Source: Branchiostoma floridae (taxonomy: Eukaryota; Chordata; Leptocardii; Amphioxiformes; Branchiostomatidae). Taken from it: DNA of 64,000 nucleotides. Position numbers and translations under genes: made by a program. This document shows positions 21,601-60,219 of the stretch, piece by piece. Below the pieces are notes generated by a model. It did no database searches. It was not told where the DNA came from and saw only the letters and a list, made by a program, of their open reading frames with translations. The DNA lies in assembly GCF_000003815.2 (NCBI RefSeq), contig NC_049995.1, forward strand, positions 10,218,595 through 10,282,594, read 5' to 3'. Position 1 is the first letter of the stretch. Each line of letters starts with the position of its first letter.

Positions 21601-24600
21601 CGCTGATCGTCAAGGTTCAACCAATCACACCTCTCCAGAAACAGGTAACTGATTCGGTTTGAAACTTGGGCCCAGAATATTGTACAAATCCCACCATAAC
21701 CTTGCTAGAATCTATTTTGCATTCAGCTTATTTACATCTTTATTCTAGATTTCATTATGTTTTGTAAAGAAAGTTCTGGTGTAGGCCATGGGTATGGTAT
21801 TTCCTGAGTGTGCAGCCTTCATTATTTCATAACTTGTGTTTTTCTTATTGCCTCAGTTCAGTGCAATTCACATTGTTTCTGACTTAAGGAGATGAGATGC
21901 TTTGTCAGTCCTAAAAATGTAGCTCGTTACCAAAGAGTAGTATTGTTATGTGATGGCCATTAAGTACATGACTATTGTAATTGAGCCACCCTTTTACTGT
22001 TAAACAATGGTCAACTTAAAACCAGGCTCAAGTTGAATTTGATTATTAAAAAAAAAGGAAATGATTATAGAAAAATACAGTCAATTGGAAAAAACATTTA
22101 AGTAAAACATACTAATGTATCTGCCTACAGTTTTAGAACTACACCAACCTCAGATATTAAAGAAAATCATTGCCGTTTTCCGTTGTCCATAGATTACCTT
22201 CTGCGGTCGACAAGTCTTTACCAACCACTTGTCAAAGAACCTCCTACTGGAGATTGTCCAAGTGCGGAAATCCCAGCCTGCATTGCCTCGGGACCTGACC
22301 CTTGACCTCCCCGCCAGGACCACGCTGCCGTCCTTCGTTCTAGAGGACGACATGATCAGGGGAATCCGACTCAGGGCCCAGGGAGAATTCACCGTTTGGT
22401 CAGGAGAGGTCGACGTAGGGTCAACAAAACAGAAGGAGACTTCTTATGTACAGGTGAAACCTTCTTGATATTGTAGCACTTTTATAAAACATATAGTATA
22501 AGGTCATGTTCATGTATAAGGAAATGGTTTCAAAATGTAACGTGACAGAAAAGATACTGTGCACAACACAGTCTGTATGCACACCTGTCCTTGGTGCTGA
22601 ACACACCATCTACACAAACATACAGGACACTGGTGCACAACACAACACAATCCAAACACAAACCTGTCCTTGGTGCTGAACACACCATCTACACAATCAT
22701 ACAGGACACTGGTGCACAACACAACACAATCCAAACACAAACCTGTCCTTGGTGCTGAACACACCATCTACACAAACATACAGGACACTGGTGCACAACA
22801 CAACACAATCCAAACACAAACCTGCCCTTGGTGCTGAGCACACCATCCACACAAACATACAGGACACTGGTCACCACACAATCCAAACACACACCTGTCC
22901 TTGGTGCTGAACACGCCATCCACACAAACATACAGGACACTGGCCACCACACAATCCAAACACACACATGTCCTTGGTGCTGAACACGCCATCCACAAAC
23001 ATACAGGACACTTGGTCACCACACAATCCAAACACACACATGTCCTTGGTGCTGAACACACCATCCACACAAACATACAGGACACTGGTGCACAACACAA
23101 TACTTACACACACCTGTCCTTGGTGCTGAACACGCCATCCACACAAACATACAGGACACTGGCCACCACACAATCCAAACACACACATGTCCTTGGTGCT
23201 GAACACGCCATCCACACAAACATACAGGACACTGGTCACCACACAATCCAAACACACACCTGTCCTTGGTGCTGAACACACCATCCACACAAACATACAG
23301 GACACTGGTGCACAACACAATCCAAACACACACCTGTCCTTGGTGCTGAACACGCCATCCACACAAACATACAGGGCACTGGTCACCACACAATCCAAAC
23401 ACACACCTGTCCTTGGTGCTGAACACACCATCCACACAAACATACAGGACACTGGTGCACAACACAATCTTGCACACACGCAGGCAGTGTGCACTCAAAA
23501 TATAAGGCCATGTTTGTGTATAAGGATATGGTTTCAAAACATAACTTGATAGAAAAGTATTTGGATGAAATTGTGATGTTAACCAAAAACATAACTGAAA
23601 CCATGATGAATTCTATTTTAGCTGCAAGACAACAACTCCTGTAAATGGCAGATAACACATTACATCTCAGTTACCATACTGGTCAAGAGTTATTGACAGT
23701 TGACTTTGCCATAGACTTATTATTATGGATGAATACAAAAAATGACCTGCCTGGAGTGCTGCCTATACACATAAAGTTATGTATGTACTGATTTACTACT
23801 TCACAGTGCTTAATGTGATACTTTGTCAGTCTTTGTTATATAAAAAGTCTTATTCAAAGACTTTTATACAATAATCACCTAAACCATTATCTGAAGGTAA
23901 CAATTACAGTATTGTTTTTTGCTCCCCAGATCTCTTGTGAGGATGGCAGTGTGTTACAGGTCCTGTGTACAGTCTACAACCTCCAACCTTCAACCCCACA
24001 GCACATGCCGGCATGGGCTCTGCCTGGACAGAGGGTGGTCAGTGTTGTTTGTTGTTTCATAAATTTGTCCTTTTGTTGCACTGTACTTTGAATCACAGTA
24101 GTGTCTGTACCCCCTATAGTGTCCCTATCCCTTGTAGTGTCTGTATACCCCCAGTAGTGTCCATACCCCCAGTAGTGTCCGTACCCCCAGTAGTGTCCTT
24201 ACCCCCAGTAGTGTCCTTACCCCCAGCAGTGTCCATACCCCCAGTAGTGTCTGTACCCCCAGCAGTGTCTGTACCCCCAGTACTCCCAGTACCCCCAGTA
24301 GTCTGACTGTACACCCTGTCTGTATAGAGCAGTGAACACTAATTGTCTGTATTGGCGATAATGTAAAAATTAGCAAGTTCAGGGTGTCATAATCTCATCC
24401 GTGAACATTCCAGGTCATAAGAACTCACCCCACACAGCAGCCCGCTATCTCAAGTGTTCAAAAGTCTAATCTTTAAACTTTCTGACCAGCGCAAGATATT
24501 TCAGCGATCAAAACTGCCGCCATGTTGCCTTTCCATGACATCATTTTAGGGACTGACCACTTCAAATTAGGGGTCAGCACAGGCCGAAACAATTAACCAA

Positions 24601-27600: not shown

Positions 27601-30600
27601 GGCTGCTCAACATCGTCATACCAGCTGCACAGGCAGGGGGCGCCACTAAGGTGGGACTGATGTAGAATCTATAATAGTTGTATTGTTCAGGAGGGGCTGG
27701 GGCTGCTCAACATTGTCATACCAGCTCCACAGGCAGGGGGCGCCACTAAGGTTGGACTGATTTGGAATATATTAGTCTGTAGAATGTACATACTAATGTA
27801 TTCAAATTTTTTATGGAAAATTGGATATCCTATTACATGTATTAAAATCAAAGAACCCACATATTATAGAACAAGTGGGTAAATTTGCCTTCCACTGCTT
27901 AAAAAGAAGAAGTCAAACCCAACAAAACTTGTATAATGTACACTTAATAAGTAGCACAACATACTCATAGAATGTAGTTCTTAGCACCTTTGTACTTTCC
28001 TTATCATTCAATTAGCCCTCAGGCATAATTTTGCAATAAATGTATTATATTATACAGGGCCTTGAAATTATTTCATAAAACAGGTCAAGATTGATGTGCG
28101 TACATGAAAAGTCAATCTCGCAATGTTTCAGCATCAAGTCATCGATCTGGAGAGAATCTTGCTTCATCTTGCTTCGTCGTATCGTCGTCGTATCCATTTT
28201 TGATTATACTGCTGCTGGGATCCCTTTCACAGGGGTAGGCAGCAGTCGGATAGTCTTCATACTGTTCTTCCATGCGGCTGGTCTTCCTCACACTATTCTC
28301 TAGAAAAAGCAATACTGAACTTGAGGTGTCTCTCTCCACAGGTGTGTTCCCTGTGTGTACAACATGGTATCCAGGTCCTGTGTGTTCAGGAGAGAGTGTT
28401 CCTCTAACCTGAGTAAACTTTCTCTCTCCACAGGTGTGTTCCCTGTGCGTGTCCTCTAGTGTACAACATGGTATCCAGGTCCTCCATCTACAGGAGAGAG
28501 TGTTCCTGACTAACCTGAGTAAACTTTCTCTCTCCACAGGTGTGTTCCCTGTGTGTGACCTCTAGTGTACAACATGGTATCCAGGTCCTGTGTGTTCAGG
28601 AGAGAGTGTTCCTCTAACCTGAGTAAACTTTCTCTCTCCACAGGTGTGTTCCCTGTGTGTGACCTCTAGTATACAACATGGTATCCAGGTCCTGTGTGTT
28701 CAGGAGAGAGTGTTCCTCTAACCTGAGTAAACTTTCTCTCTCCACAGGTGTGTTCCCTGTGTGTGACCTCTAGTATACAACATGGTATCCAGGTCCTGTG
28801 TGTTCAGGAGAGAGTGTTCCTCTAACCTGAGTAAACTTTCTCTCTCCACAGGTGTGTTCCCTGTGTGTGACCTTAATCTCCAAGCAGATCTTGCTGTGGC
28901 AAATGGGAAGGAGTTTAGCCGGCAGAGGAGTTATTGGCCACAGCGAAGATCTGCTGCAGAACGCACCGGTCAAAGGCAATTATCAGGCAATTAAACTGCG
29001 TTAGGAAGAAGGTGCGAATTGCCCCGGGCGTGCGGGGCCAGGGATCCCGTCACGGGTCGGCTGTAAGAGTTCATTGTGTTTTCTGTGACATCTGGGGATT
29101 TCTTTGCTTCTTTGGTGTCAATATACGTCAATAACTCACTACGTACTGGAGGAAAACAACAGCAAAACGCGTCAGCACGATGCGACAGGACGCAAGTGCA
29201 GTGGGGAGGGGGGCGCTGACGTCGATTTCCCCCAACGTTTCATGAAGCCACGGCGCCCGTTTGTTTGCCTGAGAATGCACCGGACGCCGTTAGAAATACT
29301 TCAATCATCGGCTTTGCTGAAAATGCACGTGCTGATTATATTTCAGCCATACATAGTATGGTGAAATATATTGTATTCGTAATGTTTCTTTCTTTCTTTC
29401 TTTCTTCTTCTTCTTCTTTCTCCTGTCAAATCTTCAAAGTGATTCATCTCCGCCGTTCCTGGACCGAATGATCTGAAATTTGGCACAGGGGTAGAATGGG
29501 CCAATACCTTGATGCTTTTTTCTCAGTTTTTTCATATCTGCCTCTAAAATGATTTTATTGAGATTTTTTGGTCAATTTTAGACCAAAACTGTATATTTTG
29601 GCCCCTGTACCCTGGTATTACAACCAAATGAGCTGAAATTTGACAGAGATGTGCCTTGATAATGCCCCCATATAAATTCGATAACACTTTTGGTGTACAG
29701 TACAACAAAATGCTTATTTTTGCGATTTTTTTACCAATTTTTGACAAAAAAATGACACTTTTGGCTCCTGTACCTTGGTATTGCAACCAAATGAGCTGAA
29801 ATTTGACAGAAATGTGCCTTGATAATGCCCCCATATAAATTCAATAACACTTTTGGTGTACAGTACAACAAAATGCTTATTTTTGCGATTTTTTGACCAA
29901 TTTTTGACCAAAAAAGGACACTTTTGGCCCCTGTACCCTGGTATTGCAACCAAATGAGCTGAAATTTGACAGAGATGTGCCTTGATAATGCCCCCATATA
30001 AATTCAATAACACTTTTGGTGTACGGTACAACAAAATGCTTATTTTTGCGATTTTTTGACCAATTTTTGACCAAAAAATGACACTTTTGGCTCCTGTACC
30101 TTGGTATTGCAACCGAATGAGCTAAAATTTGACAGAGATGTGCCTTGATAATCCCTTCATATAAATTCAATAACACTTTTGGTGTACAGTGCAACAAAAT
30201 GCTTATTTTTGCGATTTTTGGCCAATTTTTGACCAAAAAAGGACACTTTTGGCTCCTGTACCCTGGTATTACAATTAAATGACCTGAAATTTGGTATAGA
30301 TAGGCATTAGATACTTGGTAACAAGATTCAAGTAAAATTTTTGACATAAACAACTTTAAAATGATTAATTTTGGCACTTTTCTGAGGAGAAATTTGTTTT
30401 CTTTTGGCCTCCTGACGTGACCTTCCGTGACCCCGCACAGAGCCACACCTGTGCGCGTCAGCCGGAGAGTTAATTGAATCAAAGACCTAGCCAATCAGCG
30501 AAGAGGAGGCCAAAGGCTAATTAATATTCATAAGCGGGGCCTCATGATCCCGTATATAGCAGTGTTCCCGCCAGGGGGAGCGAAGCCCGCCTAAGGCTCT

Positions 30601-33600: not shown

Positions 33601-36600
33601 CGTTAGCCGCCGTGCGACTTTTGTTGACGGTCTGATATCCCTACGTCGCCGCCTCGCTGATATTCCCACGGACATGTTTCAAGAAAAATACCCAGCAAAA
33701 AACGCTGTTCTGCGTCAAATTCTATTCTATAAAACATGTGGGACTCAGTGTTACAGTCTAAATATTTTGTAGAAGCACCGCTGTAGGAAAGAAGGTCCAA
33801 GCAATGTAAAACATCACGTAGCATGAAGTTCGCTGTCAACTGGCACACAGCACATGACTGTTTGAAACTCTAAGTCTAATCAACAGCCGTGTTTGATTGA
33901 TAGCCGGCGGTCCCTTGATGAAGTCGGCGAAAGGTACGTTAGTTAGAAAATCTGCGTTTAGTTTTGATACGTAATTATAAGTTAGACAGTGGCGAGAATG
34001 ATTATTTTCTCATCAATATTTCTCTTCAGAATTACTTGAACTTAATTGTACATCTAAACAATTGGCTTACCTGTGCAATGTTTATATGATTAATGATCAG
34101 TGTACTGAAATCATGTGTAACGTATGGCTCCTAGTCAATAGATCAGCATTTTCTCTATAGTGACCACCTGTCTATAGTGGCCACATTTCCTAGTGCTGTT
34201 GTTGTTTGACATAAACTTTGAACATTTAAATTGTAAGTAACTTTAAACTGCCAGAGTTTCAGCCCAATAAAACACTCTCAGCGCCAGGGTATGAACAGAC
34301 TGACCAGACAGACGAAAATAAATCCTCGAACAAGGTTCAATCGTATCTTCCGGGTCTGGCAGGAAGTTGTTAAACTAAAATAAGAATAGGCTCGATGGCT
34401 GATTGCATACAAAGTAAAACAGTTTAACAGTTTTACAGCTTGAAGAAAACAAACGCTCCTACAGTACCTGCACCTGCTTGATTATTATTAAATCGTATGC
34501 CCTACTTGAATAAAAAAGTTCACTGCAATAATAAATGTACCCACATCACAAGGAGCTTATACTTTTTTAAACTTACACCTAGTTATCGTACTGAAAATTG
34601 TTAATGACATTACATGAAGTCATTCAACAATTTTCAGTCATGATGAAAATTTTCTGAATGGAAGGTGTGATTATTGTCATTTTCTGAAAAATAGAAGCAA
34701 GCTCTGTTTTTACCTGGAATCAATTCACAATACCAGTCCACTTTGGGGGATAATGTACTGTTAAGAGGATGTTCCATTTTTGCGCAGGGGTGATTTGGAA
34801 CAGTCCAATGTTGCGTGGGAAGGGGTATGGCTGAAATATGCTGTATTTGCTCTTAAGCAAATGTCGGCCTTTCTAGTTATGTGGATACCTTTCCAAAATT
34901 TCAAGTTATGTCTACGTTTTTACACGCAAATGTCTGTCCGTCAAATGTGACGATCGTGGGTCTTTGAACCAAATCCAAGCGTATATGATCGGTAAAGATT
35001 TGAAGTTGCAGACATGAAAAAATGATACAGGAAGTGTTTAGCGCAGCTTTTATTGCAAAATATATACAAGTAACAACTAGATAATAACTTGTTATTTGTG
35101 TACAACTGATAATTTCATATGTCGATACGTTGTCTTGGTGCGCTGTGATGCAGTCTGCTCCAGCGGTTTCGGGGGGAAGCCCCCGCTGTGAACTGGCGCG
35201 GCTCGCCGCGTTTGTCCCAGATACTGGCTCGGAAGGGTTGTAAAACGATAGTCCTGGCCAAATTTAGCCAATTTGCACGTTGGAGGTAAGTGGATACTAG
35301 GAGGAGCAGAAACACGTTTCTGAAAAGATTGCTCCTCCCGCTGCCTTTGACCGGTGCGTTCTGCAGCAGATCTTCGCTGTGGCCAATAACTCCTCTGCCG
35401 GCTAAACTCCTTCCCATTTGCCACAGCAAGATCTGCTTGGAGATTATGTGACCTCTAGTATACAACATGGTATCCAGGTCCTGTGTGTTCAGGAGAGAGT
35501 GTTCCTCTAACCTGAGTAAACTTTCTCTCCCCACAGGTGTGTTCCCTGTGTGTGACCTCTAGTGTACAACATGGCATCCAGGTCCTTCGTCTACAGGAGA
35601 GAGTGTTCCTGACTAACCTGAGTAAACTTTCTCTCCCCACAGGTGTGTTCCCTGTGTGTGACCTCTAGTGTACAACATGGCATCCAGGTCCTTCGTCTAC
35701 AGGAGAGAGTGTTCCTGACTAACCTGAGCTCACATCAGCTCAGGGTACAGGCTGTCACCACTGATACAGATGGCAGAAAGGTTAGTAGTACTGTCAGTAG
35801 AATTTCAATCACTGTTACCCAGGGTTTAGCAAGTTTTGTGAAATTCACTTGTCCTATCAGGCAAGTACAGTCATGAAAAATTTACTTGCCCAAACTGACT
35901 TTCCACTTGCCCGAAATTTTAGTAACATTTTTTGGTATGCATTTTCATGTTATTGGTTCTTCTTTTCTGTGTTGGCTAATTGCTTGATGGGAGTATATCA
36001 AAATCTCATGGAAAAATCTCTTTTGCCTGATCGGACAAGTGGGGTAAAACATTCACTTGCCCGATCAGCACTTTCACTTGCCGAGGACAATCGAACTAGT
36101 GGACTTGTCCGACCAATTGTTACCTCAAAAGTACATTGTATCCCAACTTAGAATACTTGAACGACACACAACATGTCATAGACTTTTTGAGGTAGAGTTG
36201 CTGAAGAAAAAGTGTTAAGGTTACCAGGTGCTTGAGACATTTTGTTCCATTTAATTCTTATTCTTATTCTTATTCTTAGACTATGCTACCTACTATTTCT
36301 TGTACATGTATGTGTCAAATTTGAGCAATTATATTATTCTTACAGGATTCAAAATGTTCAGTACAAAAATGGACTTAAATCGCAAATATGTTTCTTTTCC
36401 TCTAATTACATCAATAAAATAAAACGTTATACAATGTAAGAATCACTTAATCCAATAGATACATTTGTACAAACTACGCTGACTATGACTATGCTACATT
36501 AGACAAAAAAGTATAATTTTAAATACCCTGGCAAGTTTACAAATTGAATACATGGTATAATTACACAAAAATGTCATGTATAATGTTTTTCTATCATCCA

Positions 36601-39600
36601 TTTCATATAGGGAGGTTTTCAAGATCAGGATCTCCAAAGCATTGAGGTTGCCATGGCAACATCATCCAAGAACAAGGACACCATGACGCCCATAGCATTG
36701 TGGGATGTCATTGGAGCTGACCAATCAGAAAGCAGTAAGGATGCCAGATGGTTTGACAGAGGGGTGCAGTACATGAGGTTCTCCCTGGCCAATCAGGAGT
36801 GTGCTTCCACACCCGAAGGTAAGTTTGGCGGTTGATGATAGTAATACAGCTATTCGGATTGGTCAATTGATTAATGCTAGACCTTGAAATATTTAATATT
36901 TTTATTTTGTATTTAGTGTTGTAATGTTACATGTATATGCAACTTGTTCTTCTTTGAATTTTTCAAATTAAACTCATTAACAAAAGTATTACATTTTGTG
37001 CATGACTGTAAGTATAAAGCATGAACTTGGCCGACATCACAAAAAAGTGCTCACTATATAGTAACATTTGCCCCCAGAAAATGCATGTATTTTTGTTTGT
37101 CCCTTCTTACGTTCATTCATTGCTAGATTATATTTGATTTTGAAAGGTGCATTATTTTTAGCCAGTAAGTTTGAATAATATTCCTCATTTTGGATACTGA
37201 CATTGAGTCCTAATAATAAAATAGCTTTATCTCAAATTAAGAAAGGATGTTTTACCTCAAAGTTTACCTTTTTGATTTGCAGTACTGAGTCTACTGACAG
37301 ACAAAAATTAGAGTAATAATTTAAACTAAATCCATTGACCCCTTGTGATACCTTGTAGGAAATCCCAAACAAGAGACTTGGAGCCCTGCATACAGACTGG
37401 GTTCTTTCCTGAGATACTCCATCTCAGTCCCTGATTGGTCGCCTGACGGGACGTGCGGTTCCATTGCCATGGTAACGACAGTGAATGAGTCACAGGGCCA
37501 GCTGTACGTGGTGGTGGATGTGGACCCCTGTCCCAGGTTCATCCTCCACAATAACTGTCACTGGATGCTGCACTTTGGGGAGGAAGCAACAGAGGAACAG
37601 AAACTAGGTGACTAATGTTCTTCATTCTGTTCTGCAAAATATACGCTGCAACTATACTGATGGTAGATCTTCATCTGATGCATCTATGAAAACAAAATAT
37701 GTCACATTGATCTTATTGATTCTAAAGAAGAATTGTTAGTTTTTATTGACCAAAGTGTTGGGGTAAGCAAAAAAACCCTACTGACTGTAACTTCAGTTTG
37801 TGGTGTTTTAATCTTAAAGGAAGAAAATGTAGTGTTAGTGATGGCCTTTTAATATGTCAATACCTTTTTTTTTCAAATTGTTGCAGTCATTATGAAAATT
37901 TCAAACATAAAACCACCACAAAACTTTAAAGAGTTACACATCATCATTACAGTAATTCTTCCAAAATGCTCATAAGTTGCTAGTGACTTTTAAAACTTTG
38001 GTAAAATCTGTGTCTGTTTATGTCTATTAGATGGCATTCCAGTGAAGGAGGAGCTACAACTATCAGGAGTTCCCACAATTCCTCCAAACAGCAGCACTTG
38101 CTACTACCCAGAGTCCCTTGCTGCATCATTCCCAGAGTTCACTGAGGCATCAAACCTCAGCAGCCATGTTCACATCCGTCTGGCGGGGGAGTATTACGGA
38201 GCTGAGTGGAGTGAGGACGAGGGGTTTCTATTCGAGGGTCTCCTCTGGACGCAGGCCATCGATATCTGTGAGGAAAAGGAGCACCAGGTTGGGCTCCCAG
38301 GATTCGGGGAGGTGCGGGTGCGAATCAGCTGCATGGGAACGTGCAGACATGTTTACATCGACCCGGTTAAGAGAGACGAAGTGGGTAGCGACCTGGAGTT
38401 TGTGGAATTCGATGACGTGTCAGAAGAGGTAAAAGACGGAAAGAACGACAAAACGCCATCCAAACACACGGTTTCTCTGAGCGCCAAGCAACGACATTCC
38501 TCAGAAATAAACAAAGCCACTCCCTCAAACGAGCTTGCCTTGCAGTGTGGCGTATTCATTTCAGAAGCATGTTTGTTTCTTGTTGACGAGGTTTCAAACC
38601 CCTCTATAGCCACAGAGCTGTTGCGGATAACAGTCGACAAGTGCCACATCGCGTATCACCCCGTACGTACAGATATGGAAATATCAGAGGAGCTGCTTCA
38701 ACTGTGTGCTTGGAGAGTACAAGTTGACAATCAGATCTTCCACAGGGGCAACTATGACTTTGCGGTTTTGCTCTGTCCTGAACACAAAGAAGAAGAAGGG
38801 CTACAACCCAGGAAAATGTGGTCTATCGAAAAGACGGCTGACTTCTGGGCCTACCACAGTATGGTCGTAGCGAAAGTTGGTTTGAACAGAACGTTGTCTG
38901 ACAGCAAAATTGCGATAGCGTCCGTGAAGCTTACACAACGACCAATGACGGTTTACATTGAGGACACCTTCATCTATGACATCCTCAACCTGATTGGTTC
39001 ATTTTCCATTCCTGCTGCATCAGACGACACAAATCGACCAATGAGGACACACGTACTACCCCGAGAAGTGAAGGAAGCGGCGGCTTCTCTGATTGGTCCA
39101 GTGAGCATACCAGAATTGACGATAGAAGAGATGACGATGCTTGTGAGCGTGCATGCCTCGATGAAAGTGTTCATTTCCTCCGACCACACCCGTTTGACGT
39201 TCAAAAACTTCTCCCGCACTCCTGTCTTCACTGTGTCCAGGAATCTGGTTCAGGACCTGGCCTTACACTATGGCTCTGGGGCTCTTTTTAGAGCAGGTAG
39301 GTAATTTTTATGCGTCATGTACCAATTTCATAATATTCGTGCGTTTTTGCATAGTGATTCGTGTGTATCACATAATATTCGTACGAATTTCATAGGGTTC
39401 GTGCAAATGCTTAGGCACCCCTGTGTACATGGAGATTGCTTGCAGTCAGCCAGTAGATCCCAACATTTTACTACATGATGTTTTTAATCCATGGAAACGT
39501 CGATGAACTACATTTAGGTAGGAAGTGAGTGCGTGAGCAGGTAGGTTCTTTCATACAATGATAAAACCTGCTATGTGTGAGTGACCATAGATACTTGAAG

Positions 39601-42600
39601 AAACTCAAAATTACCAGCTTCTTGCACAGTTTTTATTCCTAGTGGCAATTTTCTGTTTTGTCATTTAGATTTGGATCCAGTAATTTGCATTAAGCCTAAT
39701 ATTGTGTAGCTACAGTTTTTTGGTGAAGTATTGGGTGCCATAACATTTGTAGCACAACAGGTTTACAACAGCAAATTTAGAACATTCCTAGGAATGCCTT
39801 TCGACACAAAATTCTTATTGTCAACAGTTGTCTCTCTAACAACCTTACTGAAAACTCTTAAACAATCACGCAGCCAATGTGACAATGCCATAAAACGTTT
39901 GGGAACAATTGTATCCGTGGAAACACATCTGTGCTGACCAATCAAATACAGTTAAACAGAACTTCCTAAACGTTATCTTCCAGGTTGGGTGCTTGGTTCC
40001 CTGGATATCCTGGGCAGCCCTGCCAGTCTGCTGGGAAGTATCAGCAGCGGGATATCTGACTTCTTCCGCCTGCCGTACGAGGGCCTGACCAGGGGACCTG
40101 GTGCTTTTGTGTCGGGTGTGACCAAGGGTGCGTCCTCATTGGTCAGACATGTGTCGGCAGGTATGTATTTTTAAACATACAATAACTTCAGGTGGGTTTT
40201 CTAAAGAGTGGAACAAGGGACTGTGCCCCAACACCATAACCATGTGACTAGTTGACTCAGTAGACTAGTAGACTCATCCTCCTAACGCCCGGTCCCCAAC
40301 GGCATTAGCCTATGGGGCCCTGCTATCTCATGCCCTATCAGTGGTTATTATGATTGTCACCCCAAACAAGCTGTCAACCAATCAGAGAATAGGCCTTTCT
40401 TGGGCTTTTTGTTGTCGCAAGCTGTCTCGCAAAGGCCGCTGGGAAGCTATCAGCCAATCATGTTACGTATTACATGGCTCCATCCTCCTACGCCCGATCC
40501 CCAACGGCTGACTGCCCATATAAGGGCAAGCTCATTAATATTTATAAGTAGGGCGGTTCCTAACTAATCTGAGTGCACAAAGTAGCAGAGGTAAACACAG
40601 GAAGTTTTGACACGACTGTGGTCCCTGTGCGTAGGAGAATGAGTAGACTAAAACTCCACACATTTGAAGTAAAAAAATTCACCCAATAACCTTGTTTAGT
40701 TTCTCTGCTTCCATGCAATATGCTACCCGTATGATTATTTTGGACAAAAAGCCCTACTTAGAGAGGATTTGGCATTTTTGAAGTCAGCCAAAGACTAGGG
40801 TATATTTTAGACTAACTCTATATAAACACACATACAAATACACAGCACACACCTTTCCTTGGTGCTGAACACACCTTCTGCAGAAACATACAGGATACTG
40901 GTGCACAACACAGTCTGCACACACCTGTCCTTGGTGCTGAACACACCATCTACACAAACATACAGGATACTGGTGCACAACACAGTCTGTACACATACCT
41001 GTCCTTGGTGCTGAACACACCATCTACACAAACATACAGGATACTGGTGCACACCACAGTCTGCACACACCTGTCCTTGGTGCTGAACACACCATCTACA
41101 CAAACATACAGGATACTGGTGCACAACACAGTCTGTACACATACCTGTCCTTGGTGCTGAACACACCATCTACACAAACATACAGGATACTGGTGCACAC
41201 CACAGTCTGCACACACCTGTCCTTGGTGCTGAACACACCATCTACACAAGCATACAGGACACTGGTGCTCAACACAGTCTGTATACACAACTGTCCTTGG
41301 TGCTGAACACACCATCTACACAAACATACAGGACACTGTTGCACAACACAGTCTGTATAAACACCTGTCCTTGGTGCTGAACACACCATCTACACAAGCA
41401 TACAGGACACTGGTGCACAACACAGTCTGTACACACACCTGTCCTTGGTGCTGAACACACCATCTACACAAACATACAGGACACTGGTGCTCAACACAGT
41501 CTGTATAAACACCTGTCCTTGGTGCTGAACACACCATCTACACAAACATACAGGACACTGGTGCACAACACAGTCTGTACACACACCTGTCCTTGGTGCT
41601 GAACACACCATCTACACAAACATACAGGACACTGGTGCTCAACACAGTCTGTATACACACCTGTCCTTGGTGCTGAACACACCATCTACACAAACATACA
41701 GGACACTGGTGCACAACACAGTCTGTACACATGCCCGACCTAGTTGCTGAACACACCATCTACACAAACATACAGGACACTGGTGCACAACACAGTCTGT
41801 ACAGACATCTGTCCTTGGTGCTGAACACACCATCTACACAAACATACAGGACACTGGTGCACAACACAGTCTGTACACATGCCCGACCTAGTTGCTGAAC
41901 ACACCATCTACACAAACATACAGGACACTGGTGCACAACACAGTCTGTACACACACCTGTCCTTGGTGCTGAACACACCATCTACACAAACATACAGGAC
42001 ACTGCTGCACAACACAGTCTGTATAAACACCTGTCCTTGGTGCTGAACACACCATCTACACAAACATACAGGACACTGGTGCACAACACAGTCTGTACAC
42101 ACAACTGTCCTTGGTGCTGAACACACCATCTACACAAACATACAGGACACTGGTGCACAACACAGTCTGTACACACAACTGTCCTTGGTGCTGAACACAC
42201 CATCTACACAAACATACAGGACACTGGTGCTCAACACAGTCTGTATACACAACTGTCCTTGGTGCTGAACACACCATCTACACAAACATACAGGACACTG
42301 TTGCACAACACAGTCTGTATACACATCTGTCCTTGGTGCTGAACACACCATCTACACAAACATACAGGACACTGGTGCACAACACAGTCTGTACACACAA
42401 CTGTCCTTGGTGCTGAACACACCATCTACACAAACATACAGGACACTAGTGCTCAACACAGTCTGTATACACAACTGTCCTTGGTGCTGAACACACCATC
42501 TACACAAACATACAGGACACTGGTGCACAACACAGTCTGTACACACACCTGTCCTTGGTGCTGAACACACCATCTACACAAACATACAGGACACTGGTGC

Positions 42601-45600
42601 TCAACACAGTCTGTATACACAACTGTCCTTGGTGCTGAACACACCATCTACACAAACATACAGGACACTGTTGCACAACACAGTCTGTATACACATCTGT
42701 CCTTGGTGCTGAACACACCATCTACACAAACATACAGGCCACTGGTGCACAACACAGTCTGTACACACAACTGTCCTTGGTGCTGAACACACCATCTACA
42801 CAAACATACAGGACACTGGTGCTCAACACAGTCTGTATACACAACTGTCCTTGGTGCTGAACACACCATCTACACAAACATACAGGACACTGGTGCACAA
42901 CACAGTCTGTACACACACCTGTCCTTGGTGCTGAACACACCATCTACACAAACATACAGGACACTGTTGCACAACACAGTCTGTATACACACCTGTCCTT
43001 GGTGCTGAACACACCATCTACACAATAATACTGGTCACAGTCCATACCAAAGGAGTTAAATAGCCTTTTTAAGATTGTAAAAATGATGTTAATAACAATG
43101 ATGGCAATGCCTTACCCCATGTAGGTACATTGACGTCCATCGTGAACCTGGCCAATAGCATCTCCCGTAACATGGACCGGTTGTCGCTGGACCAGGACCA
43201 CGCCCACCGTAACCAGGAGTGGCGGCGCCGGCTGCCCGCGGGAGTCACCACTGGGCTGGTACAGGGGCTGTCTGGGCTGGGCCTCAGTCTGCTGGGTAAG
43301 GGAAATACTAGCTTTTTTTAAAACTCCAGGGCACGAAGTACTCGGTGCATGTGCACCCAGGTGCACCCAAAATTGGAGATGATCATCCAATTATTTTCTG
43401 TGGGTGCACAGGGTGCACCCAAATATTCTTTTTACATTTATGTATGTAAAGATATCAAACTTTCATATTCTCGACATCTACATTTTGTAAGTGTTAGAAA
43501 GATAATAAAAAATGTCCGTCATGGTACTTGTTTAAGAATTTGATAGCTTGTAACTAAGTTTTATTATTAGGTTATTAGTTAAATTTAAGTGGTGCAACGA
43601 AAATTTTTTTGGTGCACCCAATATTTTAAGCTGGGTGCACCAGTGCACCTAATCCCAAAAATGAATTTCGAGCCCTGAACTCATTTTATCCAGAGTAATC
43701 TTTTGGCAACACAAATTGGCTTTAATTGGCTACAAACTTGATAATAGAGTCAACAGTTTTGGGACAATATTTGAAAGAATTTTGAATAAAAAACATCTAA
43801 TAAGCCACAATGAATTATAACTTTTGAAAATGGAAATTTAAATCTATTTAAATTCCTATGAACTCAAGAAACATTTTGAAAGTGACTTTACAAATATCTC
43901 TTTATTTGTAATAATTTTCAAACATCTATGTGACTATTTCACTTTTAGAAATATTAACAGATATTTGTAAACATTGTAATGGTAGAATTAGTTTACAGCC
44001 AACATAAAATTAAGCCCCTATAACCTTCCTTGGTATATTTTTAGATTTCCTTGACATAATATGAACATTGACACAAGTGGAATAAACACATTACAATTTT
44101 TGTACATTTAAGAAAAATGCTCCTTTAGTGGTAGTTGGTGTTATAAACGATCCTAATTTTTTAGATAAAAAAACTGTGACTATTCTATCCATCCCAGGTG
44201 CAATAGCTGGTGTTGTGGACCAACCAATCCAGAGTATCCAGTACGCCATGGACAGTTCGGAGAAGACGGTGACCCAGCGAGCCACGGGGGTCATCTCTGG
44301 GGTCGGGAAGGGCCTGGTGGGCGTGGTGGCCAAACCCATCGGAGGGGCGGCCGAGTTTGTGGCTCAGACAGGGCAAGGTAGATGTAATTTGTAGCTATCA
44401 GTTCGGACTACATTGTACATTTTGTATCATTTAAACTTGCTGAAAATAATCAAAATATGGTAAACATTGAGCAAAATGTGTATTGTCTAGAAATGATTGG
44501 GAAAGAGGCAGGTAGAATGTTGGTAGTGTTATTGTTTATTTTCTAAAGTCAGTAGCAGTCATTCAGGACACTTGGAAGCTGTTAACTGCAAATTAACCAC
44601 TGTATGGGACTATTATGTTGAGCTTTATAGTCTATCTTAGTATTGCTATTATTATTACATTTCTATTTGTAGCTATTCTTCACTACAACAGAGTGAAATA
44701 GAATTCGATTTCTACAATGATCAACATGATGATTGTAGGCACTAATGAAAGTAGAAAAAAAAGGTTTACCTTTTATGCTCAGCCAAGAAAAAAGCATGTT
44801 TGAATAGTTTTTGACACTGTTTGCTGTTGTTTCTTTAGGTATTCTCCAGGGTGCCGGCCTGACCCACCTGCCCCGCCCCAGGTGTAACCCCACCATCCGG
44901 GAGGCGTGTGACGCTGAGAACGGACAGGTCAAGTACACATGGTAAGACTGTATACTCTTCAAGTTGGACCACACAACATGCAAACATAATGCAAGCATTT
45001 GTTTGGACATTCCCAATCGGGTCATTTTTTGCATATTTTCCTACTTTACCATAGATATGTAACACGCACGCTGTCAGCACTTAAGTAATATACTTTTTTT
45101 TTCTCTTTCCATTTGTCCTCTTGGTACTTTGTACATACATTGTACATGTAATAATAAACTAAACAAACCAAAACTATTTATTTGTTTCAATGTTCATAAT
45201 AGACCATAACCCAGCTTCCGTCAGAATATAGAAATACATACAGGAAAGTGGAAATATTTGACATGACTCTTTCATCGGTCAAACCAATGATTGTCATTTT
45301 CCCTCTCACTTGTTTAACTACTAATTGTGATTGACAGTCTATTGCTCTGAAGATATGTCGATGAAGATTAGACATCCAAGTAATAAGATATAATGCCAAA
45401 AAGCAGTTACTTCAAAAAGCAACTGGACATGATTTTGGAAACGGTTAGATGTTTTAGATAGTATCGTCACTGACAAAAGATAGTGGATACGTCTGACAGT
45501 TCCCAAAGTCATATCTAGTTGCTTGAGTAACTGCTTTTTGGCATATTGCTCTAAAGATTTAAAAATTGTAGTCACTGCCATTATCTGGTACAGAAGTTAT

Positions 45601-50930: not shown

Positions 50931-53655
50931 CATCATCATTGGCCTCCGTCCGTCTAAAGAGACGATGGGTTTTGATCATGGTCGACATCTTCTTTGGTGG
51001 CTGAACAAGCCGATCCTGGAATGACAGTCTCTGCCGCATCCTGCACATATGAAGGTGTTTGTGATGGTAGAGGCTGTCTTCTGACGACGCTGGTCTCTGA
51101 GTTGGGATCTGGTAGCGTCAGCTTCCTTCACCCCTGCTTTTACAGTCTGTCTCCATGCTGATCGGTCAGTTGCTACTTCTTCCCAAGAGTCTATGTCAAT
51201 GTTGGCCGACTTAAGATCCCTCTTGCACACATCTCTGTATCTCAGGTGTGGGCGACCAGTTGGACGTGAACCGCACTCAAGCTGGCCATACAGAAGATCC
51301 TTCGGAATACGCCCTTTCCCCATACGGCGAACATGTCCCAGCCATCTCAGGCGGCGTTCACTGATCATTGCAAATAAAGTCCTGGAGTTGGACCTCTCAA
51401 GAACATCAGTGTTTGTGACCTTGTCCTGCCATTTGATTCCCAGAATCCGGCGAAGGCACCGCATGTGAAATGCATTGAGCTTTGCTTCTTGTTTGGTATA
51501 TGTCGTCCATGTTTCACTGCCATAGAGGAGGGTGCTTAGCACACAGGCCTGGTACACCTTCAGCTTGGTGTTTGTTGTCAGGTTTTTGTTTTCCCAAACT
51601 GTTTTGTTGAGTTTGCTCATAACGGAAGCTGCTTTTCCAACCCTTGTGTTTATTTCAGCATCCAGAGACAAGTTTTTGGTGACAGTGGATCCCAGGTACG
51701 TGAACCGATCAGTCACAGCAAGCAAGGAGCCGTTGATCGATATTGCCGGAGGGATTGACTCATCTTGGGCCATCACCTCAGTCTTCTTTATGCTAATTGT
51801 TAAGGCAAACTCTTTGCAGGCATTTGAGAACCTGTTCATCAGACGCTGCAGCTGGAGTCCATCTGGTGTATGACTCGCATGAGCTGCATCATCGGCAAAT
51901 AGCATCTCCCTAAGGAGCACGCGAGTCACCTTTGTTTTGGCGCGTAAGCGGGCCAGGTTGTACAGTTTGCCATCGTGGCGGGTGTGGATGTAGACCCCGT
52001 CATCGGAGGACTGAAAGGCATACATCAGGAGCAGTGAGGAGAAGATCCCGAATAGTGTCGGGGCAAGTACACAGCCCTGTTTAACTCCACTGAGGATCGG
52101 GAAAGGCTTGGAGGTGCTACCCTCAAAACTGGCGGTGCTTTTCATGTTGCTGTGGAAGGACTTGATTATGCTGAGTAGCTTTGGTGGGCAACCTATCTTC
52201 TCAAGCAGCCTGAACAGTCCACTGCGGCTTACAAGGTCGAAAGCCTTTGTGAGGTCGACAAAGGCAAGGAACAGGGGTTTCCGCTGCTCCCGACACTTTT
52301 CCTGGAGCTGTCTCACCGAGAAAACCATGTCAATAGTGGAGCGCCCCGCTCTGAACCCGCATTGTGCCTCTGGGTACACGCGGTCGGCTAGTACCTGTAG
52401 TCTGGCCAGGGCCACACGAGCAAATACCTTCCCCACTATGCTAAGGAGCGAAATCCCACGATAGTTGTTGCAATCGGATCTATCCCCTTTGTTTTTGTAC
52501 AAAGTCACAATATTGGCATCCCGCATACTCTGCGGCACTTCACCCTCATTCCAGCATGAGCAGAGGAGTTCATAGAGGTGTGGGAGAAGTGCTGATTTTC
52601 CTTCCTTAACTACCTCTGGTGGAATTGCATCAATTCCTGGTGCTTTTCCGCAAGAGAGGGTGTCGATTGCCTTCTCTAACTCTGTCGTAGTAGGCATTTG
52701 ATCCAGTTCTTCGAGGACTGACATTGGTGGAATGCTGTTAATGGCCTCCTCAGATACTGTGTTCTCTGTGGAATAGAGCTCGGTATAGTGTTCAACCCAC
52801 CGATCCATCTGTCCCTGACGGTCAGTAATGGCGTCACCAGTTTTTGATTTTAAGGGGGCTGTTTTCTTCCTGGTCGGACCAGTAGCCTGCTTAATGCCTT
52901 CATACATTGCCCTGGCATTACCAGTCAATGATGCATGTTCTATAGAGGAGGAGAGCTGTAGCCAAAAGTCGTTTGCGCATTTTCTTGCTAGTTTTTGGCT
53001 ACTAGCTTTTGCGTTCTTCAGCAAGAGTAAGTTCTGCGGGGTGGGGTCCCTCTTCCATTTAACCAATGCTTCTTTTTGGCCTGGGTTGCTGGCTCCATAA
53101 CCAAAATTGGCTTCATACCAGTCAACATTTCTCTTCTCCTTTCTCCCAAATGCAGTGATAGCAGACTTGTGTATAGCAGCACTGAGGTGTTGCCATTGTG
53201 TTTCAGCTGACACACCATCACTGGCCAGCCTCAGGCCATTGATAAGGGAGTGGAACTTGTTTTTACTCTCAGTATCTTTAGTACGGGCAGTGTTGATCCT
53301 TGGGAGGCTCCTAGGCCTCGCATGGTGCAGCAGTTTTCTTCCTTCCAATGCTATTTTGCTAATAAGAAGGGAATGATCTGTGTCGCAGTCGGCGCTGTGG
53401 AAGCTCCGTGTATTGTGCACCTTTTGGAGGCTTTTCCTTCTGGCAATGACAAGGTCAAGCTGGTGCCATTGATGTGATCTGGGGTGCATCCAGGAGACTT
53501 TATGTTTTTCTTTGTTTTGGAAGTAGGTGTTAGTTATACATAAGTTCTTTGCACAGCATAGTTCCAAGAGTCTCTGACCGTTTTCATTTATTTTGCCGAC
53601 TCCGAAGTGGCCAATGCATGCCGGCCAGACATCGTGTTCAGCACCAACTCTGGCA
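50931..53655 (-). mobile_element. 5'-truncated non-LTR retrotransposon with intact RT frame
   Basis: CTTTTCTTTTACT flanks both sides (50918-50930 and 53656-53668), an exact 13-bp target duplication. On the minus strand the element begins inside the endonuclease domain and runs without a break through RT to a stop. It has only about 45 bp of 3' UTR ending AATGATGATG. A very short 3' UTR with an ATG-type tail points to an RTE- or CR1-like clade rather than L1; the clade is not settled. Confidence 0.93.
50976..53654 (-). CDS. Endonuclease-reverse transcriptase of LINE, N-terminally truncated
   Basis: About 890 codons are open with no start of their own, since the frame enters from the truncated 5' end (SARVGAEHDVWPACIGHFG). 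The end of the AP-type endonuclease is present (LDLVIAR, DTDHSLL, the last containing the catalytic Asp-His). The RT follows: RDANIVTLYKNKGD, NNYRGISLLSI, QCGFRAGRSTIDMVF, AFVDLTKAFD, GVKQGCVLAPTLF and the active-site box MLFADD. The C-terminus has LLYGSETWT, RRLRWLGHVRRM and a CAGCGRDCHSRIG...HQRRC zinc knuckle. RT residues look intact, but the endonuclease is missing its front, so it cannot transpose alone. Confidence 0.92.
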   Translation of the reverse strand, partial: ARVGAEHDVWPACIGHFGVGKINENGQRLLELCCAKNLCITNTYFQNKEKHKVSWMHPRSHQWHQLDLVIARRKSLQKVHNTRSFHSADCDTDHSLLISKIALEGRKLLHHARPRSLPRINTARTKDTESKNKFHSLINGLRLASDGVSAETQWQHLSAAIHKSAITAFGRKEKRNVDWYEANFGYGASNPGQKEALVKWKRDPTPQNLLLLKNAKASSQKLARKCANDFWLQLSSSIEHASLTGNARAMYEGIKQATGPTRKKTAPLKSKTGDAITDRQGQMDRWVEHYTELYSTENTVSEEAINSIPPMSVLEELDQMPTTTELEKAIDTLSCGKAPGIDAIPPEVVKEGKSALLPHLYELLCSCWNEGEVPQSMRDANIVTLYKNKGDRSDCNNYRGISLLSIVGKVFARVALARLQVLADRVYPEAQCGFRAGRSTIDMVFSVRQLQEKCREQRKPLFLAFVDLTKAFDLVSRSGLFRLLEKIGCPPKLLSIIKSFHSNMKSTASFEGSTSKPFPILSGVKQGCVLAPTLFGIFSSLLLMYAFQSSDDGVYIHTRHDGKLYNLARLRAKTKVTRVLLREMLFADDAAHASHTPDGLQLQRLMNRFSNACKEFALTISIKKTEVMAQDESIPPAISINGSLLAVTDRFTYLGSTVTKNLSLDAEINTRVGKAASVMSKLNKTVWENKNLTTNTKLKVYQACVLSTLLYGSETWTTYTKQEAKLNAFHMRCLRRILGIKWQDKVTNTDVLERSNSRTLFAMISERRLRWLGHVRRMGKGRIPKDLLYGQLECGSRPTGRPHLRYRDVCKRDLKSANIDIDSWEEVATDRSAWRQTVKAGVKEADATRSQLRDQRRQKTASTITNTFICAGCGRDCHSRIGLFSHQRRCRP

Positions 53656-53668
53656 CTTTTCTTTTACT

Positions 53669-57700: not shown

Positions 57701-60219
57701 GTCCTGCCTAGCATCAGAATCATCTCCGGAAACAAGGTAGGCTTTTCCTAATAAGGTAGGCTGTTCCTAATAAGGTAGGCTTTTCCTAATAAGGTAGGCT
57801 TTTCCTAATAAGGTGGGCTTTTCCTGATAAGGTATGCTTTTCCTAATAAGGTAGGCTTTTCCTAATACGGAAGGCGATTCCTAATAAGGAGACTCGCGTC
57901 TCCAACTACAGATGCGCGCGGAGGGTAGTAATACGTCAAAAGTGAAGGCTCCTAACTTGTAACAGTTGTTTGTGAAGAACCTGCGAAAAAAAAAAATACG
58001 CACACGGACACCTTTCATATAATTGATTAAACATGTCCTACGTGAAGAAAATTGTCAGTTGGTAAGATGTTTCGACATGTCCTTGGTGCTGAACAAGTTT
58101 CACAAGGGCACATATTTACACACATTTCAACACTGCTTTATTTTGCAGAATGGCAGACAAAAATGCCTTAAACGGGTGAAGACGAAAATCAGCTGCACTT
58201 AGAAAGTGACGATTCAGCTGCAATGCGCATGAGATTCGCTAGAAGCGCGTTTGCACGGCCATGAGTAAGCGTGATTTGAAGGGAAGTGAAAGAAGGCGGT
58301 TCAGCACTAAGGACGTGTATGAGAAACATCGAGAGGATACTGACCACTTTCTAGCGCCCTCAAGCGATAGAAATACCAAATGCAGCCGCTAAGGATTGGT
58401 CATAATGCATTACACCGCACTTTAAAGTCATAGTTTTACGTATTACGTAATATCCAAACAATTAAAAAAAACGGTAAAAAATAACACAACAGTGCCGAAG
58501 TGAACGAACCCCACAGTGCCGCACCGGTGCCCCAAGTGCAGTGAGACCTTTAGGTATTATGTATAGTTGATATGGCAACTAGATAATAGCACGGCCGCCT
58601 AACTCCCAAATATTTATGCCCTGTATAGGTTGAAGTGAAGGTACCGGACGGTAAGAACATCACCTTCCAACCGGGCGAGCCCACCGGCACCATCTTCTTC
58701 GGAGAAATCTGTAATTTGGAAGAAGTCAAGAAGGTACTCACCACTCACTAGCACCTCCTAGCGATCAAAATACCCATTACATCAGCTGTGGACAAGTAGC
58801 GTCCCTCTATTGCACAGCATTTAGTATTGGGAACCGAAGGGACAGCGTTATAAATGTTCGTTCAAAGACAATTTATTATTTTCCTGTTTTTCTTCTGACA
58901 AGTGTTTATGTAGAAAATGACAGTTGTTAGCCATTTGTTTGAATGAGTGCCTTTTTATTGTAAAAGTGAGCTGGCTTCGTAAATTTTGCCTCAATGTCGT
59001 TTTCCATACTAAAATTCCATCATCATTCACACAGAATGAAATTGAACTTGTAACGTTATCCATTTAGAATGCGTTGTAATGTTTGTTCATTTGTTTACTG
59101 TTTGTAGGAGACTGACGAGGTGGCCCGGAAGGTACGAGAGATACATGACCTGTCCGGACCGCAGTCTGAAACCCAGGCCATGGTGAGAACAGTTAAACTA
59201 GCGGTCACTAAGGCCATGTTTTTTTTTTTTTTTTTTTTTTTAACCTTTGTATATTCATGAAAGCTCAAATCGGCCTGCAGACCGCTTTTGATTGAGGTCA
59301 TGAGAGAAGAGGCAAGGGTCAAACAACGTATATAGCAGAGATATAGTTTACATCATTAAAAGTCCGAATGAGTCTTATAGGTCTATATACACATAATTTT
59401 ACGTATTACATGGTTCAAAATCCCTAATAGCGAGAGACATGATTCAAGTCTATTCATCCATATAATCATGTTGATTTGATTAACGTTAACTGGATGACAT
59501 CCTCTGGGGATCCAAAAACTCATGGGAGCAAAAAATTGTCAAAACAGAAGTTGAACAAATGCCTGAACACACAGAATATAGTACATGTATACCAAACAAT
59601 AGATTCTTCATTTTTGTTCTTTTACATCTTCTTTGACCTTGGAATATTCAATGACATTAGTTACGTTATATGTTTTCCTATATTTGTTTTTTGCAATCCA
59701 CAGCATATATTTGCTTATTTTGAAGCTGATATGTACAATCTACAGTATGGTTGAAAACTTTTTATTCTTTTTTAAACTGATGAAAATTGATGCACGTATA
59801 GATGTCATCCATACAATCAAATCAACATGGCCTAACAGACTCTCACATAGGAAAAACTGGAGTTCGACGACATCATACCTTCGCTAACTGATGTTAACCT
59901 TAATGCCTGCTGTATTACGGCTCTTCAATTTCATACTTCATATCAGTTGATCGTATTATCGAGCCAAATAATTAACATTAGTTGTTGAGAGTATGAAAGT
60001 GATTCATATCATAATGTGACTTATGTATGGATACTGATATCATGACTGATAGACAGATCTATATGACATTTGTTTATTTTAGAGTATGATGTCTTTGTTC
60101 TGGCCAAGTTTGAAATCTAGATATTTTACCGACATTAAAAGGATTTATTTTTTTTCTTTCAGCTGACTAAGATGGAGAACGACGTGAAAGAGTTGGGCCT
60201 TTTTAAGTCGCAAGACTGA
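54640..60219 (+). CDS. Predicted secreted protein, 134 residues, five exons (whole-gene entry)
   Basis: I do not recognise the family. The exons join in phase to 134 codons plus TGA. Residues 1-32 look like a signal peptide: a basic start MSRPLRSLPPGW, hydrophobic core VLGIAMLLFLPAITV and a PGE cleavage context. The mature part has two N-glycosylation sequons (NTT, NIT), a beta-rich middle (VEVKVPDGKNITFQPGE, TIFFGEICNL) with one cysteine, and a charged helical end (ETDEVARKVREIHDL, LTKMENDVKELGLFKSQD). The start codon is the first ATG after a GA repeat and gives the signal peptide directly. It lies on the same strand as VPS13B, 5.8 kb downstream. Confidence 0.75.
55821..55940. mobile_element. 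Palindromic MITE, ACTGTAAATGC family, copy D (decayed left end)
   Basis: TCTAAATGCAGAAATGTTTG on the left and AAAATGCATTTACAGT on the right belong to the same family. The element is shortened to 120 bp. It lies in intron 1 of the small secreted-protein gene. Confidence 0.75.
56091..56497. mobile_element. GGTACC-family repeat, copy 2
   Basis: AGCGATGGGTACCGGTAC on the left and GTACCGGTACCAAATCCTAA on the right are imperfect TIRs. It lies in intron 1 of the small secreted-protein gene. Confidence 0.55.
57337..57592. repeat. GC-rich inverted repeat pair
   Basis: GTAGCACGTCACCGGAACGT and CTGCGCCTGCGC at 57332-57371 recur inverted at 57554-57592, differing at about three of 40 positions. The arms are about 180 bp apart. 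They contain GCGCCTGCGC (NRF1-like) and CACGTCA (CRE-like) motifs. This may be a MITE or a promoter-like element. Confidence 0.7.
57670..57736 (+). CDS. Small secreted-protein gene exon 2
   Basis: The acceptor is GATTTGCAG. It completes the Ser codon (AG+T) and then reads TNTTATGAPDVLPSIRIISG-NK. The donor AACAAG|GTAGGC is the first unit of a 19-bp tandem repeat that contains six further copies of the donor. Confidence 0.78.
57737..57890 (+). repeat. 19-bp minisatellite built from the exon-2 splice donor
   Basis: AAG|GTAGGCTTTTCCTAAT repeats with GT dinucleotides at 57737, 57756, 57775, 57794, 57813, 57832 and 57851, then decays. Reading past the first donor gives GTA GGC TTT TCC TAA, so use of any downstream donor adds an in-frame stop. 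Confidence 0.92.
58066..58332. repeat. Inverted pair of RE1-like motifs
   Basis: CATGTCCTTGGTGCTGAAC (58076-58094) faces GTTCAGCACTAAGGACGTG (58299-58317), both joined to GATGTTTC-type flanks. The left arm equals the core of the VPS13B satellites. It lies in intron 2 of the small gene and may be the TIRs of a short element. Confidence 0.75.
58629..58733 (+). CDS. Small secreted-protein gene exon 3
   Basis: The acceptor is CTGTATAG and the donor is AAGAAG|GTACTC. The exon has 35 codons in phase 0. It encodes VEVKVPDGKNITFQPGEPTG, then TIFFGEICNLEEVKK. Confidence 0.8.
59108..59182 (+). CDS. Small secreted-protein gene exon 4
   Basis: The acceptor is GTTTGTAG and the donor is GCCATG|GTGAGA. 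The exon has 25 codons in phase 0. It encodes a charged helical stretch, ETDEVARKVREIHDLSGPQS. The following intron has a T tract near 59220 and nothing else. Confidence 0.8.
60163..60219 (+). CDS. Small secreted-protein gene exon 5 and stop
   Basis: The acceptor TTTTTTCTTTCAG is strong. It encodes LTKMENDVKELGLFKSQD and then TGA. The 3' UTR probably runs to ATTAAA (60899) or AATAAA (61104) and, if so, contains a MITE and a tandem hairpin repeat. Confidence 0.8.
   Translation: MTKMENDVKELGLFKSQD

Follow-up and report, generated by a model that had tools for sequence, protein, structure and literature searches.

A 74-bp minisatellite of the amphioxus Branchiostoma floridae carries RE1-type sites that also occur alone in the genome

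A 64,000-nucleotide stretch of the Branchiostoma floridae genome (contig NC_049995.1, positions 10,218,595 to 10,282,594, forward strand; hereafter, the window) contains a 74-bp minisatellite in which nearly every unit carries, on the minus strand, the word TTCAGCACC-NN-GGACAG (plus-strand form CTGTCC-NN-GGTGCTGAA). The word matches RE1 (also NRSE), the site of the vertebrate zinc-finger repressor REST (also NRSF), and it recurs thousands of times in the genome, at places with unrelated flanks and in several arrays with unrelated spacers. We think it probable, judging from sequence, that the 17-bp block is a genuine RE1-type site of a REST-like zinc-finger repressor and that tandem duplication of an RE1-centered segment gave rise to the array. 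REST and RE1 are often called a vertebrate device.

RESULTS

RE1 cores in the window

Analysis of the main array with Tandem Repeats Finder (TRF) indicated a period of 74, 29.5 copies, and 94% matches. The core is exact in 27 of the 30 units and has one mismatch in another (at 40853); it is not recognizable in the remaining two, near 41735 and 41883, both of which share one identical altered block. Head-to-tail units of between 10 and 100 bp, extending over a few kilobases, make the array a minisatellite, and the 27 exact units have both half-sites, TTCAGCACC and GGACAG, in one orientation with a 2-bp gap. With up to two mismatches allowed, the window held 42 matches, whereas 100 dinucleotide-shuffled versions of it averaged 0.11. 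The RE1-bearing features are as follows.

40846 to 43025, minus strand: main array, 74-bp minisatellite, with 27 exact RE1 cores, 1 with one mismatch, and 2 units without
22580 to 23469, minus strand: sister array of the main-array unit (73/74 bp, 11.9 copies), with 8 exact RE1 cores
58077 to 58093, minus strand: single RE1-like site with 1 mismatch
19596 to 19612, plus strand: single RE1-like site with 2 mismatches

To score the word, a matrix was built from the 13 distinct human RE1 sites in the available portion of one report (PMC1794552). The unit 17-mer scored 25.2 bits on this matrix, above the human sites themselves (16.7 to 24.6 bits); none of 2000 shuffled units reached the score of the array unit, the highest among them being 15.7 bits. 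The initial annotation of the window had described RE1 in about 27 of 30 units of a 74-bp satellite and had proposed that the array be scored against shuffled units and that the satellite be sought elsewhere. The description is borne out, and the unit outscores shuffled ones, on the human 13-site matrix rather than that of JASPAR. The sister array has units like those of the main array (spacer z=12.9), and related spacers occur at three further loci (L015, L053, and L069).

Base preferences around the word were determined at 36 sites outside arrays, 9 array regions having been left out. Bias exceeded a chi-square of 16.3 at positions 10 (A in 29), 11 (A in 22), and 18 (G in 18), was weaker and below that value at positions 19 (G in 15) and 21 (C in 15), and outside the footprint was highest at position −11 (A in 20; chi-square, 15.7), under the same threshold. 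The pattern matches the behavior of a putative binding site of about 21 bp.

Half-site spacing was also examined. Vertebrate REST accepts gaps of 2 or 7 to 9 bp and not of 3 to 6 bp, according to the portion of PMC8096226 available to us, and silencing at gaps of 8 to 9 bp is described in the corresponding portion of PMC9903721. Between contig C1 and position 18.8 Mb of contig C12, and with 100 of the 131 matches at gaps of 7 to 10 bp among those listed, gaps of 3 to 14 bp were found at 4, 3, 1, 2, 4, 7, 2, 1, 2, 1, 0, and 0 loci, respectively, with a peak at 8. Pairs overlapping a canonical RE1 (other half with at most 2 mismatches) had been dropped, which removed 84 of 100 in a first list of pairs, 86 of 100 at gaps of 7 to 10 bp, and 8 of 14 at gaps of 11 to 14 bp; at gaps of 3 to 6 bp (26 places), this overlap filter was left off, and each cluster was reduced by hand to a single count. 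Gaps of 7 to 9 bp accounted for 13 of 27 loci, an excess in the right direction and weak (p=0.002 against gaps of 11 to 14 bp alone and p=0.008 once gaps of 3 to 6 bp were added). Under a stricter overlap rule, six loci remained at gap 8, one at gap 7, and none at gap 9. We conclude that identification of the word as RE1 is supported by the matrix and by the 2-bp spacing of its half-sites.

Abundance and independence of the copies

The genome (513 Mb in 431 contigs) was scanned for the exact core, which was found 3,462 plus 3,965 times, for a total of 7,427; the reversed word was found once. The classical consensus in its degenerate form gave 8,818 matches, compared with 25 for its control. 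The degeneracy expected of vertebrate RE1, in which most sites are off consensus, was absent in amphioxus. Such strictness could be due to a protein that is itself stricter, to a spread of recent date, or to selection made efficient by a very large population.

Copies were read in detail for the 100 listed exact matches, which span 0.42 to 8.73 Mb of C1 (8.3 Mb of one contig) and fall into 43 regions. Together with both window arrays, these copies form 46 clusters. When 150 bp on each side was compared for colinear similarity with the 17-mer masked (E up to 0.01), 30 of the 46 clusters resembled no other; 14, including both window arrays, fell into one loose group that is held together partly by simple sequence, and 2 paired up. 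Unrelated flanks in 30 clusters would be expected if a short word is recognized, and not if a single element had been copied. The lone-type clusters, 30 in 8.3 Mb, amount to about 3.6 per Mb, or some 1,850 genome-wide if the stretch is typical. The copies also include a family flanked by GGATGGTG, and five sites of a variant, TTCAGCACC[AG]AGGAGAG, lie within about 113 kb (G000:C1:2911276, 2914435, 2917621, 2999856, and 3023985) and are perhaps a small dispersed family.

Seventeen regions without dense arrays (135 kb) contained 19 exact sites, 12 with one mismatch, and 5 with two, 9 of the 17 inexact ones belonging to L023; 200 permuted motifs gave averages of 0.00, 0.01, and 0.10, respectively, in the same 135 kb. 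Adjacent near-sites at most 1 kb apart were oriented head-to-tail in 25 of 25 pairs, from 11 loci, with nine pairs from L023. Flanks of neighbors were related at L016, L025, and L048 and unrelated at L010 and L014. These neighbors fit tandem duplication followed by spacer decay, and some apparently lone sites may be what is left of former arrays. L023 itself holds, at 1989 to 4261, ten same-strand RE1-like sites 150 to 400 bp apart with partly similar flanks, and its right half-sites are mostly GGAAAG, GGCAAG, or GGGAAG. Elsewhere, at G000:C1:1537035-1537102, four RE1-like words (TTCAGAACCAC[AG]GACAG) follow one another directly every 17 bp, so that the repeat consists of the site alone.

RE1-bearing arrays and their spacers

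Of the 43 regions, 8 have the core inside TRF arrays, with basic periods that include 24, 40, 43, and 51. With RE1 removed, the spacers of L015, L053, L069, and both window arrays were related, and those of L009, L051, and L065 were unrelated to the window family and to each other, bar one marginal pair (L065 and the sister array; z=2.0, p=0.026). A single dispersed family, with a common spacer in all RE1 arrays, was not found.

The 74-mer split best into halves of 35 and 39 bp that are similar to each other (z=5.8), and it aligned to two copies of the 43-mers with z of 9.0 to 9.7. Moreover, the second half of the 74-mer carries a decayed RE1. We conclude that the 74-mer is an old dimer in which one RE1 has decayed.

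Host gene and other features of the window

The main array probably lies in an intron, since it is flanked by a long open frame and a probable exon.

37994 to 39304, plus strand: 436-codon open frame upstream of the main array, a probable exon of the host gene
43125 to 43295, plus strand: probable exon downstream of the main array, with AG before, GT after, and open frame TLTSIVNLANSISRNMDRLSLD...

The initial annotation named the host gene VPS13B, which is a tentative assignment; Pfam and PDB searches with both flanking probable exons returned no match. An RNA origin of the array was rejected, as the window contained no tRNA and no Rfam match, and so was a coding array, as periods of 74 and 43 are not divisible by three. 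Ten large open frames around lone RE1 sites elsewhere gave one reverse transcriptase and otherwise no Pfam match, and therefore provide no test of an association with neural genes.

Tandem repeats cover 14.6% of the window and include other arrays without RE1. A big array of 65 to 68 bp at 4814 to 6587 contains CTGTCC and GGTGCTG-like words without a full RE1. Two arrays of about 104 to 106 bp, at 28355 to 28873 and 35447 to 35728, have similar units with an apparent splice acceptor and exon start (TCTC..CCACAG GTGTGTTCCCTGTGTG) and resemble the "mirages" described for amphioxus genes. On the minus strand, an 895-codon open frame at 50976 to 53663 encodes a reverse transcriptase domain (RVT_1, E=3.7e-29) and marks an element like a long interspersed nuclear element (LINE).

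Search for a REST-type protein

Candidates for the recognizer were sought by several routes. Human REST fragments matched mostly expanded polydactyl zinc-finger genes, and the Pfam REST finger family, with 124 matches, was too unspecific here. Comparison of finger helices among the zinc-finger loci retrieved up to that stage gave agreement at no more than 7 of the 28 key residues, mostly confined to a few fingers. The C-terminal REST finger had one weak match, at C4:20253606 (E=1.7e-4). The corresponding loci, L035 and L036 (G000:C4:20245700-20253704 and beyond), hold a multi-exon zinc-finger gene whose lone C-terminal finger, DGDYVCIYCDRSFTDKNMWTQHISRHK, is REST-like and whose upstream fingers are, by eye, unlike those of REST; this candidate was rejected. 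An N-terminal piece of REST found no match in the genome, in a search run without a positive control. Open frames for polydactyl C2H2 zinc-finger proteins are many and are clustered on G000 contigs C158, C10, C323, and C16. We conclude that the failed search is weak evidence against a close REST orthologue.

DISCUSSION

A rigid short word is kept in many unrelated places, for which a protein with REST specificity would be the simplest cause. The excess of the word over its reversed form, together with the unrelated flanks, suggests recognition by a REST-type protein, which would be REST itself or a protein with its specificity. In the explanation that we favor, a short RE1-centered segment of about 43 bp would have been duplicated to give a 74-bp dimer, one of the two RE1s would have decayed, and the array would have followed. 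By its sequence, the array is a series of RE1 sites that differ from known RE1 in their strictness and whose recognizer is putative. That the array would load many molecules head-to-tail, as a repressor platform or a sink, seems to us rather unlikely.

Several observations weigh against the favored explanation. Exact copies account for 84% of consensus matches (7,427 of 8,818), compared with 2 of 13 human sites; the preference at positions 18 to 21 is G,G,N,C and not CGCC; and gaps of 3 to 6 bp, which vertebrate REST does not accept, still occur at 10 of 27 loci. A REST orthologue was not recognized among the 150 zinc-finger candidates scored, of 4,024 to 8,007, with paralogues dominant. The share of regions with the core in arrays, 8 of 43 (19%), is near the tandem coverage of the C1 background (7.0%) and of the window, a small excess.

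The same must be said of part of the evidence on conservation, in which the p values come out too small, as units within one array are not mutually independent. RE1 columns of the main array were better kept than the rest (443/450 versus 1668/1736; p=0.013), yet the RE1 block ranks 26 of 74 among 17-bp windows, and in the sister array the difference was not significant (175/180 versus 670/702; p=0.4). Among arrays elsewhere, which had been picked for holding an exact core, a choice that favors RE1 conservation, RE1 was better kept than the rest in L009 (162/165 versus 257/285; period 40), L053 (148/152 versus 254/293), L065 (94/94 versus 575/637; period 107), and L015 (669/700 versus 1187/1305, yet rank 17 of 43); further rows of L009 and L065, from overlapping TRF periods, were less clear or not significant. 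Conservation was not significant in L011, L069, and most rows of L051, and the direction was reversed in one period of L057 (335/393 versus 216/236; p=0.024) and in one row of L051 (38/47 versus 108/115; p=0.018), the consensus of which matches RE1 at 8 of 15 positions. In an old array, L026, with flanks about 67 to 79% alike, six units had 1, 5, 5, 1, 1, and 0 mismatches to RE1. In five older clusters, 4 of 33 places recognized by flank alone hold RE1 with at most 2 mismatches, many of the 33 being short matches within a unit. REST-type recognition, as proposed in the initial annotation, is thus partly supported, by the word, its copy number, and its unrelated flanks, and no REST-like gene was recognized among the candidates scored; the better conservation of the RE1 block, likewise implied there, is borne out in part, by p value in the main array and not by rank, and the sister array shows no significant difference.

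A more modest account, to which we give an even chance, is that RE1 is real elsewhere and that the array is an ordinary minisatellite seeded by one site, perhaps bound and with no effect on the host gene. The small difference in conservation and the lost units, two outright and one-half of each dimer by decay, lead us to lean toward such a bystander for the main array, and the window also has other arrays that lack RE1. The recurrence of RE1 arrays makes us lean away from it: the 37 arrays in 179 kb of background have units that sum to 2,299 bp, from which 0.39 RE1 arrays would be expected for 30 lone sites, whereas the arrays observed are of four or more unrelated kinds (P=7e-4 in a rough test), in addition to which four arrays keep RE1 better than their spacer. 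The same recurrence, together with the uniform head-to-tail orientation of neighboring pairs and the inexact sites that far exceed those of permuted motifs, would fit a role of RE1 as a nucleus, at which a tightly bound zinc-finger protein repeatedly promotes tandem duplication through fork block or break repair. We consider that role unlikely, as the share of regions in arrays exceeds tandem coverage by little, the two background arrays that hold RE1, of 37 in all, both belong to the window itself, and selection for multiplied sites would look alike, the comparison having covered the RE1 word alone.

Convergence, in which a zinc-finger protein of a descent other than that of REST would read the same word in a lineage with a large zinc-finger repertoire, is in keeping with the unrecognized REST, the abundance of polydactyl genes, and a word stricter than vertebrate RE1. 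It would demand a remarkable coincidence in 15 fixed bases, in the free 2-bp gap, and in the gap-8 peak, and we regard it as quite improbable. Even less probable is that a self-spreading minisatellite or mobile element with no link to REST has the word as its core. The spacer shared by the window arrays and three other loci, the dominance of the exact form, and the frequent same-strand neighbors of lone-looking sites speak for such an element, whereas the 30 clusters without colinear flank similarity, the unrelated spacers of other arrays, the free middle bases, and a common flank that ends at about position 21 speak against it.

Compared with vertebrate RE1, the amphioxus word has the same two half-sites and free 2-bp gap, and the array unit outscores all 13 human sites; it differs in the predominance of exact copies, in the tail at positions 18 to 21, in the thousands of copies that include tandem arrays, and in a recognizer that is putative. 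Human minisatellites with a PRDM9-type core are likewise built on a common zinc-finger recognition word, although the protein and the word are others. In mammals, REST sites were multiplied by repeats and mobile elements, LINE2 among them, as stated with reference to earlier work in the available portion of PMC4499139. The spread in amphioxus is likewise repeat-borne and differs in its tandem arrays and several unrelated spacers. The mirages, gene-borne minisatellites of amphioxus Adh3 and globin genes, are of similar size range to the RE1 array in the accessible part of their description (PMC3087553), which has them repeat an exon-intron boundary, whereas the RE1 array appears intronic (it ends at 43025, and the exon starts from about 43125) and has RE1 as its common part. 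No report of RE1 sites or RE1-cored minisatellites in amphioxus was found in one open-access library, judged by title and start of abstract. RE1, its spread by repeats in mammals, and gene-borne amphioxus minisatellites are known, and RE1-cored amphioxus arrays would be new.

The most far-reaching possibility is that RE1 forms a complete system in amphioxus, with lone sites that are independent of one another and number about two thousand (as extrapolated from 8.3 Mb), RE1 as a hotspot of tandem amplification, and REST-bound minisatellites as repressor platforms; as a whole, we hold it doubtful. With thousands of perfect RE1 words in amphioxus, a pre-vertebrate origin of REST and RE1 would become directly testable, and unrelated minisatellites that have captured RE1 offer a natural experiment on whether tandem duplication is promoted by a bound zinc-finger site or multiplied sites are selected. 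If both the RE1 system and the hotspot are true, the REST/RE1 code would predate the vertebrates and would shape the evolution of satellites.

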